64,000 bases of DNA from Acidimicrobium ferrooxidans. GTDB lineage: Bacteria > Actinomycetota > Geothermincolia > Fen-727 > Anoxymicrobiaceae. Location of the stretch: the NCBI GenBank assembly GCA_020723485.1, contig DYIU01000002.1, forward strand, positions 219,543-283,542, written 5' to 3'. The notes below the pieces were generated by a model. That model was given only the letters and a program-made list of their open reading frames with translations, was not told where the DNA came from and ran no database searches. Shown piece by piece: positions 1,910 to 35,363 of the stretch. Each line of letters begins with the position of its first letter. Position 1 is the stretch's first letter. The translations under genes and the position numbers were made by a program.

Positions 1910-3640
1910 TCAACGCCGGGGGTTCTTCATGGAGATGGGCATGCGCCAGTCGCGCCCGAAGGCGCGCGGGGTTATCTTGACCCCGACCGGCGCCTGCCTG
2001 CGCTTGTACTCGTTCGAATCGACAACGGCTACCACCCGCTCGACCAGCTCAGGCGCCCGGCCCTGCGCAATTATCTCCGAGGCGCTCATGCCCTGCTCGA
2101 CGTAGGCCTCGAGTATGGGGTCCAGCTCCTCGTAGGGGGGCAGCGAGTCGGTGTCGAGCTGTCCTTCCCTGAGCTCGGCGGTGGGCGGCCTCTCGATGAT
2201 GTCTCTCGGGATGATTTCTTTCCCGGCTCTCGCGTTTATGTGCTCGGACAGCTCGTACACCTGTGACTTCAACAGGTCTTTTATCAACGCGAAGCCTCCG
2301 GCCATGTCCCCGTAGAGGGTGCAGTAGCCCATCGAGAGCTCGCTCTTGTTCCCTGTGGCCAGGACCAGCCACCCGAACCTGTTAGAGAGCGCCATCAGGA
2401 GGTTCCCCCTGATGCGCGCCTGGATGTTCTCGAACGTCTCCCCCTGCTCCCCCTCGCCCAGCTCACCCCGCAGCGCCTCCCGGTAGGCCCCGTAGACGTC
2501 ACCTATCGGCATCTCCAGCAGCTTCACCTCGAGGTTCCGCGCCAGCTCGCGGGCCGCGGCGCCGCTCTGCCCGGACGTGTACTTGGAGGGAAGGAAAACA
2601 CATGTGACGTTCTCGGGACCAAGGGCCGTCACGGCAAGCGCCGCGGTGAGCGCAGAATCTATGCCCCCGCTCAAGCCCAGGACCACCTTCTCGAAACCGT
2701 TCTTGACCACGTACTCGCGGAGCCCCATCGTCAGTGCCAGGAGTATCTCCTCCGGGGCCGAGAGCTCCTCGGGCCCAGGCGTCCTCTCGACCGCCGGGGA
2801 GGCCCTGTGCGCCGGCCTTTCGACCTCGCATACCTCTACATCGTGGGGGCAGCCCGCGCTGCTGTACCGGAACCGGGGCTCTAGCATCCTCGAGCCCTTG
2901 AGCGTTCCGAGCTCGATCGGGCAGAGTACAAGCTCCTCGGTGAACCTCGGTGCCTGGGCCACGAAACCGTCCTGCGGGTGGTAGACGCAGGAACCCCCGT
3001 CGAAAACCAGCTCGTCCTGGGCTCCGACGGTGTTCACGTACACCACGACCACGGGCCCGTCCATCGACCGGGAGGCAATGAGCTGCCGCCTGTAGGCGTA
3101 TTTCCCCCGGTTGAACGGCGAGGCCGACAGGTTGAGCAGCACCTGCGCCCCGCCCCTGGCCACCTGGTCCTCGACCGGTCCCCCGGGGAACCAGATGTCC
3201 TCGCATATCGTTATCCCCAGCCTGACTCCCCCGACGTCGAGCACCACGCTCGCGGTACCGGCACCGAAGTACCGCTTCTCGTCGAAGACGCCGTAGTTGG
3301 GCAGGAAGGTCTTCCGGTAGCTGCACAGGAGCCGGCCGCGGGACATCACCGCTGCCGAGTTGAACGTGTCGTAATCGCTCTCGACAAAACCAACCACCGC
3401 TATGACGTCTCCTATGCGGCCCGCGAGCCTTCCAACCGCTTTCATGCTGGCGGCGGCGAACTCGGACTTGAGGAGCAGGTCCTCGGGGGGATAGCCGGTC
3501 AGGCATAGCTCCGGGAACACGACGATGTCCGCGCCGGCCGCGGCCGCCCGGTCGGCGTAATCGGCGATCCTGGCGGAATTTCCTTCCAGGTCGCCAACCG
3601 TGGTGCCTATCTGTGCAAGGGCAACTACGATTTCCGCCAT
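1910..3640 (-). CDS. nadE: Glutamine-dependent NAD+ synthetase
   Basis: NadE catalyses the last step of NAD synthesis, amidating deamido-NAD using ammonia released from glutamine. The 576-residue protein has the two expected parts. An N-terminal nitrilase-type glutaminase (about 1-260) carries the Glu-Lys-Cys triad in FPELCLTGYPPEDLL, the YRKTFLPNYG segment and ITICEDIWFP. A C-terminal synthetase domain (about 290-560) has the pyrophosphate loop LGLSGGIDS and TGNKSELSMGYCTLYGD. It lies 38 nt after the PII gene, downstream of amtB. PII control of glutamine-dependent NadE has been reported in proteobacteria, so the linkage may be functional (inference). A second, ammonia-type synthetase is encoded at 34590-35363. 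Confidence 0.95.
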   Translation of the reverse strand: MAEIVVALAQIGTTVGDLEGNSARIADYADRAAAAGADIVVFPELCLTGYPPEDLLLKSEFAAASMKAVGRLAGRIGDVIAVVGFVESDYDTFNSAAVMSRGRLLCSYRKTFLPNYGVFDEKRYFGAGTASVVLDVGGVRLGITICEDIWFPGGPVEDQVARGGAQVLLNLSASPFNRGKYAYRRQLIASRSMDGPVVVVYVNTVGAQDELVFDGGSCVYHPQDGFVAQAPRFTEELVLCPIELGTLKGSRMLEPRFRYSSAGCPHDVEVCEVERPAHRASPAVERTPGPEELSAPEEILLALTMGLREYVVKNGFEKVVLGLSGGIDSALTAALAVTALGPENVTCVFLPSKYTSGQSGAAARELARNLEVKLLEMPIGDVYGAYREALRGELGEGEQGETFENIQARIRGNLLMALSNRFGWLVLATGNKSELSMGYCTLYGDMAGGFALIKDLLKSQVYELSEHINARAGKEIIPRDIIERPPTAELREGQLDTDSLPPYEELDPILEAYVEQGMSASEIIAQGRAPELVERVVAVVDSNEYKRRQAPVGVKITPRAFGRDWRMPISMKNPRR

Positions 3641-3678: not shown

Positions 3679-4017
3679 TTATATCGCTTTGATGCCCTCG
3701 TCTCCGGTCCTGACCCTCACCGCGTCCTCCACGTCGAGCACGAACAGCTTGCCGTCTCCTATCTGCCCGGTGCGGCACTTCCTTACGAAGACGTCCAGGG
3801 TCTTGCCCACGTCCTCGTCGAGTACGACAACCTCAACCCTGGCTTTCGGTATGAAGGTGACCGTGTACTCGTTGCCTCTCCAACGGTGAGTGACGCCCTT
3901 CTGCTTGCCGTGGCCCTTTACCTCGGTCACCGTGAGGCCCGGGTACCCAATCTCCGTGAGCGCCTCCAGCACGGCGTCGAGCTTCTCAGGCTTTATTATC
4001 GCCACGATCATCTTCAT
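3679..4017 (-). CDS. glnK: PII nitrogen regulatory protein (GlnB/GlnK)
   Basis: This is a 112-residue trimeric PII signal protein that senses 2-oxoglutarate and ATP/ADP and typically gates the Amt channel. It starts with the standard MKMIVAIIKPEKLDAV and has an intact T-loop whose tip contains RGNEY with Tyr51, the residue that is uridylylated or adenylylated in other bacteria. The C-terminal signature region (KLFVLDVEDAVRVRTGDEG) is present. It lies 21 nt after amtB and before nadE, so it is named GlnK for its context. Co-transcription from the amtB promoter with its GlnR-like operator is likely. Confidence 0.95.
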   Translation of the reverse strand: MKMIVAIIKPEKLDAVLEALTEIGYPGLTVTEVKGHGKQKGVTHRWRGNEYTVTFIPKARVEVVVLDEDVGKTLDVFVRKCRTGQIGDGKLFVLDVEDAVRVRTGDEGIKAI

Positions 4018-4038: not shown

Positions 4039-5601
4039 TCAGGCTGCCCCGTCGTAGAGGTCCGTATGTTCCGTGTAGGCCGGGACGCCCATCTCAGCGT
4101 CTACCCCGTCAAGCTCGATCTCGGGCGCGACCCTTATGCCCATCAACCTGTCCTGCACCTTGAAGAAAGAGTACGCCAACCCGCACACGAACACTATGCA
4201 TGCGGCCATGCCGATGAGCTGCGCGAGCAGCTGGCTCCAGCCGCCGTACAGGGCCCCCCTGACAGCGTGCTCAACGCCGTTCAGGCCGGCTCCATAGGTG
4301 CCGTCGGCGAAGATCCCGAGGGCGAGGACACCCCACAGGCCGTTCATGCCGTGGACGGCGACCGCGCCCACCGGGTCATCGATCTTGAACCGCCGTTCGA
4401 GGAGGAAGACCGCCACGCATACCCAGACCCCCGCCACCGTCCCGATTATCGCCGCCGCCCAGCTTGGTACGAACGCACACGGCGCGGTAATCGCCACCAG
4501 ACCCGCCAGGCAGCCGTTCGCGCTCATCGACGGGTCGGGGTAGCCGGTCTTCTTCCACATGTAGAGCATCGCGGCGACCGCGCCGAAGCACGACGCCAGG
4601 AGCGTGTTGGTGGCGACGACTGCCAGCCTGAAGTCCCCTCCGCTCAGGGTGCTGCCGGCGTTGAAACCGAACCACCCGAAGACCAGGATTATGGTACCGA
4701 CTATTGCCAGCGGGATGTTGTGGCCGGGGATCGCCCTCGGCCTGCCGTCTTTCGAGAACTTTCCGAAGCGCGGTCCTATCACCAGGATCCCCATCAGGCC
4801 CGTCAGGCCGCCGACCGCGTGCACCACCGACGAGCCGGCGAAATCGACGAAGCCGTTGCCAAGCCCGGCTTTCACGCCCAGCTGCGAGAGCCATCCTCCG
4901 CCCCACACCCAGTTGCCGAAGACCGGGTAGAGTATCGCCCCCATGAACAGGCCGTATATCGCAAATGCCGAGAACTTCCAGCGCTCAGCCATCGCCCCGG
5001 TGGGGATTGTCGCGGCCGTGTCCATGAATACCACCTGGAACAGGAAGAACAGGAATATGCTCGTGTCATACGCGGGGCCCGAGAGGGCGAAGCCTTTCGC
5101 CCCCAGCAGCCCCCACCCTGCGACGGTCACCTCATGGGTGAGGATGGGCGCCCCGCCAAGGGTCTTGAGGGCGCCGACTCCGCCGAACATCAGCGCGAAG
5201 CCGACGAAATAGAACGCGACCACAGCGATCCCGAATATCATGAAGTTGGTCATCATCACGTGCAGCGCGTTCTTCCTCTGGCAGAAGCCGGTCTCCAGAA
5301 GGGCGAACCCCGCTTGCATGAAGAACACAAGTATTCCGCCCAGGAACACCCACACGTAGTTGATGGCTATCTTGTTGTGGCCCACCTCGTCGAGGACCGC
5401 TTCTTCCGAGGCCGTTTTCGCGTCTCCCGCCGATTCGGAGAGGTCCGTCCTGTTCCCGGTCTTCTCTCCGGTGGAATCGCCCGAGACGGCGAGGTTCCCG
5501 AATATGAAGATGGTCGCCATCACAAGGAGGGTCACGATGACAGAGCGGACGAGGTGCATCCGCCTCCGCCTTCCGGATTCGTGCATCTGACGACTGGTCA
5601 T
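4039..5601 (-). CDS. amtB: Ammonium transporter (Amt family)
   Basis: This 520-residue ammonium channel has about 11-12 transmembrane helices. The twin pore histidines are visible in SSVVHAVGGLTG and AVHGMNGLWGV. An N-terminal hydrophobic segment followed by an acidic linker (SGDSTGEKTGNRTD) precedes the first core helix, so a cleaved signal or extra helix is likely. ATG at 5601 was chosen because a strong Shine-Dalgarno run (GAGAGGTGAAGGGG) lies just upstream; a TTG 21 nt further upstream falls before that site. It heads the amtB-glnK-nadE cluster. A four-box GlnR-like operator lies at 5658-5695, which suggests nitrogen control. Confidence 0.95.
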   Translation of the reverse strand: MTSRQMHESGRRRRMHLVRSVIVTLLVMATIFIFGNLAVSGDSTGEKTGNRTDLSESAGDAKTASEEAVLDEVGHNKIAINYVWVFLGGILVFFMQAGFALLETGFCQRKNALHVMMTNFMIFGIAVVAFYFVGFALMFGGVGALKTLGGAPILTHEVTVAGWGLLGAKGFALSGPAYDTSIFLFFLFQVVFMDTAATIPTGAMAERWKFSAFAIYGLFMGAILYPVFGNWVWGGGWLSQLGVKAGLGNGFVDFAGSSVVHAVGGLTGLMGILVIGPRFGKFSKDGRPRAIPGHNIPLAIVGTIILVFGWFGFNAGSTLSGGDFRLAVVATNTLLASCFGAVAAMLYMWKKTGYPDPSMSANGCLAGLVAITAPCAFVPSWAAAIIGTVAGVWVCVAVFLLERRFKIDDPVGAVAVHGMNGLWGVLALGIFADGTYGAGLNGVEHAVRGALYGGWSQLLAQLIGMAACIVFVCGLAYSFFKVQDRLMGIRVAPEIELDGVDAEMGVPAYTEHTDLYDGAA

Positions 5602-5657
5602 GTGAACCCCTTCACCTCTCAACGCGAGTTCTTACGGTTCAAAGGTAAACGGGCGTT

Positions 5658-5695
5658 GTTTCGCGGTGATTTCCCGCATGTAAACTAATTGTTAA
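5658..5695 (-). promoter_or_regulatory. GlnR-like four-box operator upstream of amtB
   Basis: Read on the minus strand, four pentamers repeat with an exact 11-bp period: TTAAC, TTTAC, GAAAT and GAAAC, each separated by 6 nt. This matches the architecture of actinobacterial GlnR boxes (GTnAC-n6-GAAAC repeated). The last box continues as GAAACAACGCC, identical to the corresponding position at glnA. The operator lies 57 nt upstream of the amtB start codon. The binding protein is inferred to be the OmpR-type regulator at 33928-34593. Confidence 0.65.
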
Positions 5696-5696
5696 G

Positions 5697-5764
5697 TGCG
5701 GTACGCGGCGCGAAGTGACCCCGGCGCCGGTTCTCGCCCGGCCTCCCCCTCAATGCGGGGAGGC
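5697..5764. repeat. Diverged flank repeat and hairpin upstream of the transposase
   Basis: Positions 5697-5722 match 6778-6803, just beyond the 3' end of the transposase unit, at 21 of 26 bases, both ending in GTGACCCC. Positions 5741-5748 (GCCTCCCC) and 5757-5764 (GGGGAGGC) form a perfect 8-bp inverted repeat with an 8-nt loop. This hairpin-plus-repeat arrangement just upstream of a REP-associated transposase could be a substrate or end of the element (inference). Confidence 0.45.
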
Positions 5765-5830
5765 AGTGACTCTTTCGCATTGCTTGTATTGCTGTTATTA
5801 TGGAGAGTGACCTCTTCGATTGGAAGCGCG

Positions 5831-6637
5831 ATGCTGGAAAGCCCTCTTGAATCCGCCCAGGGCCTCTATCATGTCTTCCCACGCGGCCGGGGCGGGAACA
5901 TAGTCTTCTTCGACGACCTCGACAGGTCGGTGTTTCTCGGACTGCTCGAGTGTACCGTCTACCGCTTTCGCTGGATCCTGTGCGCGTACTGCCTCATGGG
6001 CACCCACTATCACCTGCTCGTCGATACTAGCCGGGAGGCCCTGTCGTCCGGCGTGCGGTCGCTGCATTCGACCTACTCCAGGCGGTTCAAACGAAGGCAC
6101 GGACACCCGTGCGATGCCGGGGGTCGCCTGTTCTCCGACCATCTCGCCCATGATCGCGTCGACGAGGAATACAGGATGCTGAACGCGGTGAGATACATGG
6201 CCTTGAACCCGGTGGAGGCGAACCTCTGCCGCCACCCGGGAGAGTGGGCCTGGAGCAGTTACAACGCGACGGCGGGAATACTCGCCCCCCTGCCGTTCCT
6301 GAGCGTTCAGCCGGTGCTGGAGCGCTTCTCCCACGACACGAGGCGAGCGCGCAACCTGTTCATCGATTTCATCGACGGTTCCTCGCTCGAGCTCGAAAGA
6401 GATGTGAAGTCGAGGTACTACCTGCAGGAGCCGGTGCGAACGATCAAGGCCAGGCCGCGCACGCGGCCCGTTCTCTCCGAGATCTTCGAGGGTTGCGACT
6501 CGCGGGAGTCGAGGGACGATGCCATCGGGCGGGCGTTCAACCGCTGGGGCTACACGCTGGACGAGATAGGCGAGCACCTGGGCCTGCATCTATCGACCAT
6601 CTCCAAAATAGCCAGGGAGTACCGCAGGTTTGAATAA
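5831..6637 (+). CDS. REP-associated tyrosine transposase (Y1/HUH family) with C-terminal HTH
   Basis: This 268-residue IS200-like single-strand transposase has the HUH metal-binding motif as GTHYHLLVD (His59, His61). The probable nucleophile is Tyr122 in RYMALNPVEANL, the counterpart of the family's Y-x-x-x-NPVRA motif. After residue 210 a helix-turn-helix segment (YTLDEIGEHLGLHLSTISKI) resembles the DnaA/HTH-like tail seen in many RAYTs. ATG at 5831 was chosen because family homology begins there (YHVFPRGRGGN follows). The last codons and stop lie inside the left arm of a 15-bp inverted repeat, with GTGACCCC-type repeats on both sides. RAYTs are thought to mobilise short palindromic repeats, several of which occur in this window. 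Confidence 0.9.
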   Translation: MLESPLESAQGLYHVFPRGRGGNIVFFDDLDRSVFLGLLECTVYRFRWILCAYCLMGTHYHLLVDTSREALSSGVRSLHSTYSRRFKRRHGHPCDAGGRLFSDHLAHDRVDEEYRMLNAVRYMALNPVEANLCRHPGEWAWSSYNATAGILAPLPFLSVQPVLERFSHDTRRARNLFIDFIDGSSLELERDVKSRYYLQEPVRTIKARPRTRPVLSEIFEGCDSRESRDDAIGRAFNRWGYTLDEIGEHLGLHLSTISKIAREYRRFE

Positions 6638-32484: not shown

Positions 32485-33822
32485 TCAGAGTATCGAGAGG
32501 TGGCTCTCCAGCTCGAACTCGGTCACCTGCGCCCTGTACTGCTCCCACTCTATCTTCTTGTCGCGGATGAGCGAGCTGAACACGTGCTCCCCGAGGCAGT
32601 CGTAGAGGAGGTCGCTGCCCTCGGCCAGGGTTATGGCCTCCCAGAGGTCGGACGGCAGCGCCTTTATGCCGAGCCTCTTGCGCTCTTCCTCGCCCATCTC
32701 GTAGATGTTCCGCTCGATGGGCTCGCCGGGGTCTATGTCCTCCTCGATGCCCTTCAGGCCGGCCGCGAGCATGGCCGCGAAAGCCAGGTACGGGTTGGCG
32801 GCGGGGTCAGGCGAGCGGAACTCTATCCTGGTGGCCTTCTCCTTGCCCGGCTTGTAGACCGGGACCCTTATCATGTCTGAGCGGTTGCGCTGGGCCCATG
32901 ACAGGTATACCGGGGCCTCGTAGCCCGGGACCAGCCGTTTGTATGAGTTCACCCACTGGTTGGTGACCAGGCAGATCTCGGGCGCGTACTTCATCAGACC
33001 GCCGATAAAGGCCTTCGCCTCGCCGGTCAGGAAGTACTTGTCCTTCGGGTCGAAGAAAGCGTTCGAGTCACCCTTGAAGAGCGACATGTGCGTGTGCATG
33101 CCGCTGCCGTTCTCTCCGAACAGGGGCTTGGGCATGAAGGTCGCATACGCACCGTGTTTCATGGCGACCTCCTTGATGACCAGCCTGTATGTCATCGCGT
33201 TGTCGGCCATCTGGAGGGCGTCCGTATACCTGAGGTCTATCTCGTGCTGGCTGGGGCCCACCTCGTGGTGAGAGTACTCCACCCCGATACCCATCTCCTC
33301 GAGGGTGAGCACCATGTCGCGCCTCATGTCGCTCGCGATGTCGAGGGGGGTAAGGTCGAAATAACCGCCGCGATCAATCACTTTGGGCGGCAGCTCGGAG
33401 TCGGCGAAGACGTAGAACTCGAGCTCCGGGCCCACATAGTAGGTGTAACCAAGGTCTTGTGCCTTTGACAGGATGCGCTTGAGGACGAACCGCGGGTCTC
33501 CAGCGTGCGGCCTGCGGTCCGGCTCTATGATGTCGCAGAACATGCGCGCGACGGCGCTGTGCCCGCTGGGGCGCCACGGCAACAGCGCGAACGTGGACGG
33601 GTCGGGCTGCGCGATCATGTCGCTCTCGTCTATCCTGGCAAAGCCCTGGATGGACGAACCGTCAAATCCCATCCCGCTCTCCATGGCCTCGGCGAGCTCT
33701 TCCCTGGTGATTGCGAAGCTCTTCAGGAAGCCCAGTATGTCGGTGAACCAGAGCCTGATGAACTTTACGTCGTGCTCCCTGACCGCCTCGAGCACGTATT
33801 CCTTGTCCGGTGTACCTGTCAT
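32485..33822 (-). CDS. glnA: Glutamine synthetase type I (alpha-like)
   Basis: GlnA makes glutamine from glutamate, ammonia and ATP. The 445-residue protein has MGFDGSSIQGF near residue 50, KPLFGENGSGMHTHMS and the NRSDMIRVP substrate region. Length and the segment NIYEMGEEERKRLGI fit the GSI-alpha group, which lacks the adenylylation loop, so control is probably transcriptional or by feedback. ATG at 33822 follows GGAGGAG. Upstream are a TATCAT -10 box at 33863-33858 and a four-box GlnR-like operator. The gene directly upstream encodes the probable regulator. Confidence 0.96.
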   Translation of the reverse strand: MTGTPDKEYVLEAVREHDVKFIRLWFTDILGFLKSFAITREELAEAMESGMGFDGSSIQGFARIDESDMIAQPDPSTFALLPWRPSGHSAVARMFCDIIEPDRRPHAGDPRFVLKRILSKAQDLGYTYYVGPELEFYVFADSELPPKVIDRGGYFDLTPLDIASDMRRDMVLTLEEMGIGVEYSHHEVGPSQHEIDLRYTDALQMADNAMTYRLVIKEVAMKHGAYATFMPKPLFGENGSGMHTHMSLFKGDSNAFFDPKDKYFLTGEAKAFIGGLMKYAPEICLVTNQWVNSYKRLVPGYEAPVYLSWAQRNRSDMIRVPVYKPGKEKATRIEFRSPDPAANPYLAFAAMLAAGLKGIEEDIDPGEPIERNIYEMGEEERKRLGIKALPSDLWEAITLAEGSDLLYDCLGEHVFSSLIRDKKIEWEQYRAQVTEFELESHLSIL

Positions 33823-33857: not shown

Positions 33858-33911
33858 ATGATACGGCGGCGTTGTTTCGGAAATGTTTCAAGCGGGTGAA
33901 AAGGTTGTTAA
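33858..33911 (-). promoter_or_regulatory. GlnR-like four-box operator and promoter of glnA
   Basis: On the minus strand the pentamers TTAAC (33911-33907), TTCAC (33900-33896), GAAAC (33889-33885) and GAAAC (33878-33874) repeat every 11 bp. This is the spacing of actinobacterial GlnR boxes. A TATCAT -10 box (33863-33858) follows 10 nt later with no good -35, as expected for an activator-dependent promoter. The GAAACAACGCC ending is identical at the amtB operator (5658-5695). Confidence 0.7.
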
Positions 33912-33927: not shown

Positions 33928-34593
33928 TCAGGAGGTGACGAAACGGTAGCCGACGCCGTGTACGGTCTCGATGTACTGCCTGGAGCCTTCGATCTTCGCC
34001 CGCACCCGTCTCACGTGTACGTCAACGGTGCGGGTCCCCCCGTAGTAGTCATATCCCCAGATGCCGCGGAGGAGCTCTTCACGAGAGAAGGCCTTGCCCG
34101 GCGATGAAGCGAGCTTCCGGAGCAACTCGAACTCCTTGTAGGTGAGGTCCACCGCTCCACCCTCCATGAACACCTGGTGCGCTTCCAGGTTGATGACGAG
34201 GTCACCGATGACTATCGCCTCGCCTTCGCCGCCCCGCTTGACCTCCACGGTCCTGACCCTGTAGACGAGCTCGCCGGCGCCTCCCGGCGAGACCAGGAAG
34301 TCATCCACGGCCCTCAGGGTATCGGTATCCTGGAGCCTGTCCATCGCGTCGAGCGCCGCAATCATCGGGATCCTCGATATCCTGCCGCCCGCCCCGTTCA
34401 TTATCGACCGTAGCTCCCTTGCGAGCCTGGCCGACGGGTTTACCAGCACCACGGCGGCGGGCACCCGTGTCCCCGGCTCGGCGACGCCTGCAGGGCCGTC
34501 CAGGCTGACGACCGTCACGCCCAGCAGGTCGAGCCCCTCGGCCAGGGAATCCGCGTATCCCGAACCGTCACCAAGGAACGCGTACGTGGTCAC
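33928..34593 (-). CDS. OmpR-family orphan regulator with degenerate receiver, GlnR-like
   Basis: This is a 221-residue DNA-binding regulator. The C-terminal winged helix (about 125-220) is canonical: LTYKEFELLRKLASSPGKAFSREELL, then RTVDVHVRRVRAKIEG and TVHGVGYRF. The N-terminal receiver has lost the acidic pocket, and the phospho-acceptor position reads VVLVNPSA with Asn instead of Asp. Actinobacterial GlnR is likewise a phosphorylation-independent OmpR protein. The start is GTG, overlapping the nadE stop by 4 bp (GTGA). It lies just before glnA, whose promoter has GlnR-like boxes. No histidine kinase is adjacent. GlnR identity is inferred from context. Confidence 0.85.
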   Translation of the reverse strand: MTTYAFLGDGSGYADSLAEGLDLLGVTVVSLDGPAGVAEPGTRVPAAVVLVNPSARLARELRSIMNGAGGRISRIPMIAALDAMDRLQDTDTLRAVDDFLVSPGGAGELVYRVRTVEVKRGGEGEAIVIGDLVINLEAHQVFMEGGAVDLTYKEFELLRKLASSPGKAFSREELLRGIWGYDYYGGTRTVDVHVRRVRAKIEGSRQYIETVHGVGYRFVTS

Positions 34594-35363
34594 ATCGCTT
34601 CGCCTCCCGGCGAGGTCTCGCCGCCCGGTCCGGCAGGCTCGAATACGGGAATGGCCGACCTCTTGTGCTCGCTCGCGCGCACCATCATCCGTACCTTGTC
34701 GACCGCGCCCGGGTCCCCCGAAGGTACCTCCCCACTCTCCAGCGCCTTCAGTATCGCGTCCAGCTCCGTGTAGGTGATGCCCATCTCGCCCTCGTCCGTC
34801 TGTCCGTCCCACAGGCCCGCGCTTGGGGGCTTGTCCAGGATGGCCCGCGGGACCCCCAGCCGCTCGGCCAGCCCGTACAGGTCGGTCTTGTAGATGCCGG
34901 CCAGGGGGCATATATCGGCCCCGCCGTCGCCGTACTTCGTGAAGTAGCCGACGCTGCGCTCGCTCTTATTGGAGGTGCCCACCACCAGCATCCCGCGGTC
35001 GTTCGCCACGAAGTACAGCGCCGCCATTCTCAACCTCGGTTTGAGGTTGGAGACCGCGGCGTCGCACCCCGGAGGCAGCGCTGCCAGCATGCTCTCGAGT
35101 GCCGGGGTGAGGTCGACGGTGATGGTCGCGACCCCGGCCGCCTTCGCGGCCAGGAGCGCGTCGTCCGCGTCGCAGCTCTGGCTCATGCAGGGCATTATGA
35201 CCCCGAGGGCATCATCACCGAACGCGCGCCCGCACAAGGCGGCTACCGCCGCCGAGTCCAGGCCGCCGCTCATCCCGAAGACGGCCCCTCGGGCGCCGGC
35301 CGAATCCACCTGCCTCCTCATCCACTCGACAATCTCGTCAACCATCTTCCGTCCCTTTTCCAT
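34590..35363 (-). CDS. nadE: NAD+ synthetase, ammonia-dependent type
   Basis: This 257-residue stand-alone synthetase lacks the glutaminase domain of the first NadE. The PP-loop FGMSGGLDSAAVAALC, VVGTSNKSERSVGYFTKYGDGG and DKPPSAGLWDGQTDEGEMG identify the family. It uses free ammonia directly. It is translated with the GlnR-like regulator (4-bp overlap), which ties NAD synthesis to nitrogen control. The start may be ATG 35363 or ATG 35345; the latter has the better GGGACGG site. Confidence 0.92.
   Translation of the reverse strand: MEKGRKMVDEIVEWMRRQVDSAGARGAVFGMSGGLDSAAVAALCGRAFGDDALGVIMPCMSQSCDADDALLAAKAAGVATITVDLTPALESMLAALPPGCDAAVSNLKPRLRMAALYFVANDRGMLVVGTSNKSERSVGYFTKYGDGGADICPLAGIYKTDLYGLAERLGVPRAILDKPPSAGLWDGQTDEGEMGITYTELDAILKALESGEVPSGDPGAVDKVRMMVRASEHKRSAIPVFEPAGPGGETSPGGEAM

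Follow-up and report, generated by a model that had tools for sequence, protein, structure and literature searches.

Four-box sites before glnA and amtB suggest a GlnR-type nitrogen regulon in an uncultured actinobacterial class

Nitrogen genes and four-box sites of the window

The window analyzed here is a 64-kb stretch (C5:219543-283542) of a genome, G000, that comprises 3,356,122 bases in 11 contigs. It contains an ammonium transporter gene followed by a PII gene, and a glutamine synthetase gene preceded by a gene for an OmpR-type regulator. A preliminary description of this DNA had assigned glnA, amtB and the regulator by reading alone and had placed one four-box site before each of the two metabolic genes. 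These gene identities were confirmed by Pfam and NCBIfam, and both sites proved exact to the base in coordinates, strand and sequence. The features are listed below by position in the window.

3679..4017, (-) strand: PII signal protein gene (PF00543), directly downstream of amtB
4039..5601, (-) strand: amtB, ammonium transporter (PF00909)
5642..5647, (-) strand: amtB -10-like hexamer TACCTT, exactly 10 nt after box 4; no -35
5658..5695, (-) strand: putative four-box operator of amtB, TTAACAATTAGTTTACATGCGGGAAATCACCGCGAAAC, located by pattern search; boxes TTAAC (5691-5695), TTTAC (5680-5684), GAAAT (5669-5673) and GAAAC (5658-5662), 11-bp period
32485..33822, (-) strand: glnA, encoding a type I glutamine synthetase; TIGR00653 scores 529.9 bits, above its cut-off of 429
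33858..33863, (-) strand: glnA -10-like hexamer TATCAT, exactly 10 nt after box 4; no -35
33874..33911, (-) strand: putative four-box operator of glnA, TTAACAACCTTTTCACCCGCTTGAAACATTTCCGAAAC, between the regulator gene and glnA; boxes TTAAC (33907-33911), TTCAC (33896-33900), GAAAC (33885-33889) and GAAAC (33874-33878), 11-bp period
33928..34593, (-) strand: GlnR-type OmpR-family regulator of 222 residues, with a pseudo-receiver and a winged-helix domain, recognition helix GGTRTVDVHVRRVRAK

When up to three mismatches were allowed, the amtB and glnA sites were the sole matches to the four-box pattern within the window, and 100 dinucleotide-preserving shuffles of the window gave none. The two sites had also been described as sharing a continuation, GAAACAACGCC. 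This continuation is present, but its first A is the only base kept in a set of 29 homologous sites, so the remainder is probably a coincidence, and the AACGCC tail was rejected as an additional motif.

The GTG start of the regulator gene overlaps the end of a NAD synthase gene (34590-35363), which lies directly before it and lacks a carbon-nitrogen hydrolase domain. Another NAD synthase gene, which does include this domain, lies behind amtB-PII (1910-3640). The two enzymes flanking the nitrogen genes are probably the glutamine-dependent and ammonia-dependent forms. The open reading frame divergent from amtB (5696-6637) resembles, by eye, a REP-associated (Y1) transposase.

The lineage was placed through a genome of the same order, G012, which shares a 2180-bp stretch at 100% identity with a contig of Candidatus Geohydrothermomicrobium daggyaiense, an organism assigned by NCBI to Actinomycetota, Ca. 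Geothermincolia, Ca. Geothermincolales, Ca. Anoxymicrobiaceae. From this identity we infer that the window genome belongs to another family of that order, within an uncultured, deep-branching actinobacterial lineage. The taxonomy of the relatives used below follows kinship labels and this one identified relative, and several of these genomes are incomplete.

The regulator encoded beside glnA

The protein encoded at 33928-34593, which the preliminary description had singled out as the regulator, matches PF00486 in its DNA-binding domain, and a Pfam search gave no receiver match. The AlphaFold2 model (mean pLDDT 92) consists of a receiver-like fold and a winged helix, and this predicted fold matches OmpR-family structures, including M. 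tuberculosis GlnR (8hih). The best PDB matches by sequence are three GlnR entries (8hig, 8hih and 8hml). With an actinomycete GlnR as the query, the regulator was the best match in the genome and a reciprocal best hit. Five lower-scoring matches are all canonical response regulators with canonical receivers, the highest of them being an MtrA-like paralogue (C11:237411).

We constructed a phylogenetic tree of 53 proteins, sampled by their similarity to the query and rooted against a small outgroup. GlnR and GlnR-like proteins separated from the canonical regulators (support 100/99), and the window regulator grouped with others of its order in a clade of its own (100/100), beside the classical GlnR clade (100/99) and not inside it. 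For this reason we file the protein as GlnR-type rather than as GlnR sensu stricto, and the branching order among the GlnR-like clades is provisional, given the sampling by query similarity and the small outgroup. Together, the PDB matches, the reciprocal best hit and the tree identify the regulator as a GlnR homologue.

The recognition helix is essentially invariant in the alignment, GG(T/S/A)RTVDVH(V/I)RR, and reads TRTVDVHVRR in the regulator, as in GlnR, versus TRTVDVYIRH in the MtrA-like paralogue. The protein combines an OmpR-family winged helix bearing this GlnR helix with an atypical orphan receiver without canonical phosphorylation residues. At the receiver Asp position it has Asn (VNPS), and hence departs from the Asp-50/Arg-52 arrangement of homodimerization. 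All seven regulators examined from its order carry Asn or Ser at this position, while Asp is retained in family f5 of the class. In M. smegmatis GlnR, replacement of that Asp by Ala abolishes activity (PMC10704036).

Distribution of the sites and promoter geometry

A whole-genome scan, proposed in the preliminary description, gave five matches at four places with up to three mismatches (amtB, glnA, C2:162973-163021 and C3:485839), and the pattern read backwards gave none. The three best sites are those before glnA, amtB and a second amt gene, amt2; the pattern is thus concentrated before nitrogen genes and nearly absent elsewhere. The amt2 site lies outside the window, about 55 bp upstream of the start codon, and has five boxes (TTAAC-TTTAC-TTAAC-GAAAC-GAAAC) with TATAAA as its -10-like hexamer; a PII gene follows amt2, as one does amtB. 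The genome holds two amt and two GS-family genes, and the divergent second GS gene is the only one of these with no site before it.

The remaining candidates in the genome were set aside. The match at C3:485839 (TTAAC-TTTAC-GCAAC-TTAAC) is followed by an open reading frame that belongs to no Pfam family; the match has no -10 at the fixed place and is doubtful. A looser search (KHHAC four times, at most one mismatch) added a few T-rich sites, near the control background; of its matches, C11:42616, C2:279968 and C5:847557 were excluded as GlnR-type because they have no GAAAC boxes, and C3:541718 is unlike the operator site.

Conservation was examined with the same pattern and threshold in 39 genomes from family to phylum. 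In most genomes of the class the best site, and likewise several further fetched sites, lies directly before glnA or amt; such sites are present in most regulator-bearing relatives, and the regulator gene is the immediate neighbor of glnA in several families. Neither a regulator match nor a site was found in G006 (99% complete), G007 and G008, three members of the window genome's own family. Sites occur with no regulator match in G005 (77% complete), as does a glnA site in G019 (no regulator match at E <= 1e-30), and regulator-bearing G017, G026 and G027 have no site at up to three mismatches. At L014 (order f4), no more than two boxes are clear in the regulator-glnA spacer, though another place in that genome (L128) carries a clear site for glnA.

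Two further matches in the class were rejected: a one-mismatch site of G004 (L159), with no recognizable nitrogen gene downstream before the contig end, and a two-mismatch site of G005 (L162) before a gene resembling, by eye, that of a phosphate-binding protein, which is probably a Pho-type or chance match. The amt leader of G018 (L132) apparently contains six boxes in register (TTAAC, TTTAC, GAAAT, GAAAC, GAAAC, GAAAC), and two of its spacers are identical (GGTTCG).

In 26 of 29 glnA/amt sites, a -10-like hexamer, with A in its second and T in its sixth position, begins exactly 10 nt past box 4, against 0-6 sites at each other offset, and nothing resembling a -35 element was found at spacers of 16-18. 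In PhoB/PhoP-type promoters, 11-bp direct repeats replace the -35 element and lie about 10 bp upstream of the -10. The best explanation of the present geometry would be an activator of class II whose own contact takes the place of the one at the -35.

The boxes of the window match the published GlnR type, gTnAc/GaAAc, with 6-bp spacers and an 11-bp period, and their targets are nitrogen assimilation genes (glnA, amtB-glnK type); published boxes include GTnAC, TTAAC, TTCAC and GAAAC with 6-nt spacers (PMC10704036, PMC3087709). Their order is a-a-b-b in the window genome and across the class, in place of the textbook a-b-a-b. Published GlnR sites are mostly a-b-a-b, with accepted deviations (PMC10704036, PMC3087709, PMC5826061), and since a-a-b-b also occurs before glnA/amt elsewhere in the phylum and published variants indicate that no one order is obligatory, we did not treat the order as excluding. 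Two phylum-wide searches of 149 genomes, made with no -10 requirement, gave nitrogen-gene sites with the -10 at offset 10 in 27 of 35 cases (17/22 for a-b-a-b and 10/13 for a-a-b-b; 0-3 at other offsets). Because both orders share this offset, a-a-b-b is not peculiar to the lineage and the spacing is general to GlnR-type promoters.

Some Chloroflexota and Armatimonadota also carry GlnR-like regulators in the neighborhood of a glutamine synthetase gene. In 16 such genomes, a search for four boxes plus a -10 gave 25 matches, with controls near zero, and nearly all lie before amt, a glutaminase gene or a gene for glutamine synthetase of type I or III. Among 81 Armatimonadota genomes, fetched sites with at least two GAAAC-type boxes were almost all before amt, glnA or PII, whereas fetched all-TTAAY sites of the same spacing were before prepilin-like and other genes, never amt or glnA, a contrast that serves as an internal control and suggests a second, perhaps Pho-like, regulon of equal spacing. 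A match was found in only 15 of 121 Chloroflexota genomes, about half of these before amt or glnA. The choice of genomes from these phyla was guided in part by the regulator. An incomplete literature search found no paper linking GlnR with Armatimonadetes or Dehalococcoidia. It is probable, judging from these matches, that GlnR-type control (a pseudo-receiver OmpR regulator, four 11-bp boxes and a fixed 10 nt to the -10) also operates in at least part of both phyla, that it predates the phyla or has moved between them, and that GAAAC boxes set it apart from the Pho-like regulon of equal spacing.

Several individual sites in these phyla deserve mention. Armatimonadota loci L251-L257 and L260-L266 have four TTAAY boxes with an 11-bp period and TAnnnT after 10 nt, many at prepilin-like genes (FTLIELLVVIAIIAILAAILFPVF), and the site at L269 precedes a canonical response regulator, so that this regulon is possibly of the Pho type. 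In Chloroflexota genome G176 (L224), a GlnR-type site lies directly before the gene of a glutaminase-STAS protein, a possible extra nitrogen target. Homologous proteins of about 240 residues without a Pfam family follow GlnR-type sites in Armatimonadota G180 and G181 (L233 and L239); they appear porin-like by eye and are candidates for a new regulon member.

A candidate nitrogen regulon, its alternatives and known systems

Together, these observations make it very probable that the two sites serve as activator operators, close to their promoters, in a nitrogen regulon of the GlnR type, although binding, activation and the nitrogen signal are read here from sequence. The preliminary description had arrived at such a regulon from two sites; gene specificity and regulator homology now support it, whereas the box order is not the textbook one and the regulator does not fall inside the classical clade. 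The Asn in the receiver and the genomes in which sites and regulator do not coincide also weigh against it. The protein encoded at 33928-34593 is most likely the GlnR-type protein that binds these boxes. It would contact the four direct 5-bp boxes with one subunit per 11-bp turn, on one face of the DNA, and the four subunits would substitute for the missing -35 element. The bound regulator would recruit sigma-A RNA polymerase to the -10 hexamer 10 nt downstream of box 4, and nitrogen limitation would then switch on glnA and the amtB-PII and amt2-PII units.

We weighed three other readings of the sites. Direct repeats with an 11-bp period are frequent among OmpR-family proteins, and the boxes might be bound mainly by another member of that family, either the MtrA-like paralogue (C11:237411) or a PhoB/PhoP-type protein, with the GlnR-like protein secondary or absent. 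That paralogue is the second-best GlnR match in the genome, MtrA of Streptomyces competes with GlnR at nitrogen genes (PMC10704036), and the all-TTAAY sites of Armatimonadota point to a second regulator acting with equal spacing before non-nitrogen genes. It is the sites with GAAAC boxes, however, and not the all-TTAAY ones, that stand before nitrogen genes; in several families the gene for the regulator lies right beside glnA, the regulator has the GlnR-type helix where the paralogue deviates, and the three same-family genomes without the regulator are also without sites. We therefore regard binding mainly by another regulator as unlikely.

Less likely still is that the same regulator binds and represses glnA and amtB by occluding RNA polymerase. 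The repeats do overlap the place of the -35, and GlnR is described as repressing some targets, such as ald in Amycolatopsis (PMC4140684); yet these promoters have no -35 for transcription without an activator, a distance to the -10 so precise and so well conserved is typical of activators in contact with the polymerase, and Streptomyces amtB is activated by GlnR (PMC5826061). Two sites by themselves could in principle share a period by chance or as a functionless repeat, an outcome already called unlikely in the preliminary description. Conservation has refuted it, and its probability is now negligible: the shuffles and the reversed pattern gave no match, a third site precedes a nitrogen gene, and the sites are kept across the class with a fixed -10.

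On the activator reading, a resemblance between two sites becomes a regulon open to test, in an actinobacterial class that is uncultured and branches deeply. GlnR-type nitrogen control is known already; the lineage and a regulator forming a sister group beside classical GlnR are new. The present analysis adds to the preliminary description a third target, conservation throughout the class, a constant distance to the -10, a receiver that has lost its Asp and a probable reach into other phyla. A known type of control would thereby extend well past the well-studied soil actinomycetes, and nitrogen promoters could be predicted by a simple rule: four boxes, an 11-bp period and TAnnnT 10 nt after the last box. 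The receiver Asp is regarded as important for GlnR dimerization, and a whole order appears to tolerate its loss. If the Armatimonadota and Chloroflexota sites are what they seem, GlnR-type control would be far more ancient, or far more mobile, than the name implies.

Among known systems, GlnR of Bacillus and other Firmicutes, a MerR-family protein, shares only the name and physiological role, its protein family and operator being unrelated. PhoB/PhoP-type promoters are alike in the place of their repeats and the distance to the -10 but differ in box sequence and regulon, and in having a phosphorylated canonical receiver. The M. tuberculosis GlnR activation complex (8hih; Shi et al. 2023, as reported in PMC10704036) is described there as having four DNA-binding domains head to tail on four boxes; its receiver and winged-helix fold and its four boxes per promoter are matched here, although the present protein is known from its sequence and a predicted monomer. 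The closest system is the actinobacterial GlnR regulon of Streptomyces, Mycobacterium and Amycolatopsis. There, too, glnA and amtB are preceded by 5-bp boxes in tandem with spacers of 6 bp, and the regulator is an atypical orphan of the OmpR family whose recognition helix is the same. Here the order is a-a-b-b, the receiver has Asn for Asp, the regulator gene adjoins glnA, and the clade lies outside classical GlnR in the uncultured class Ca. Geothermincolia; other actinobacterial sites, those with a-b-a-b order included, likewise stand 10 nt from the -10.
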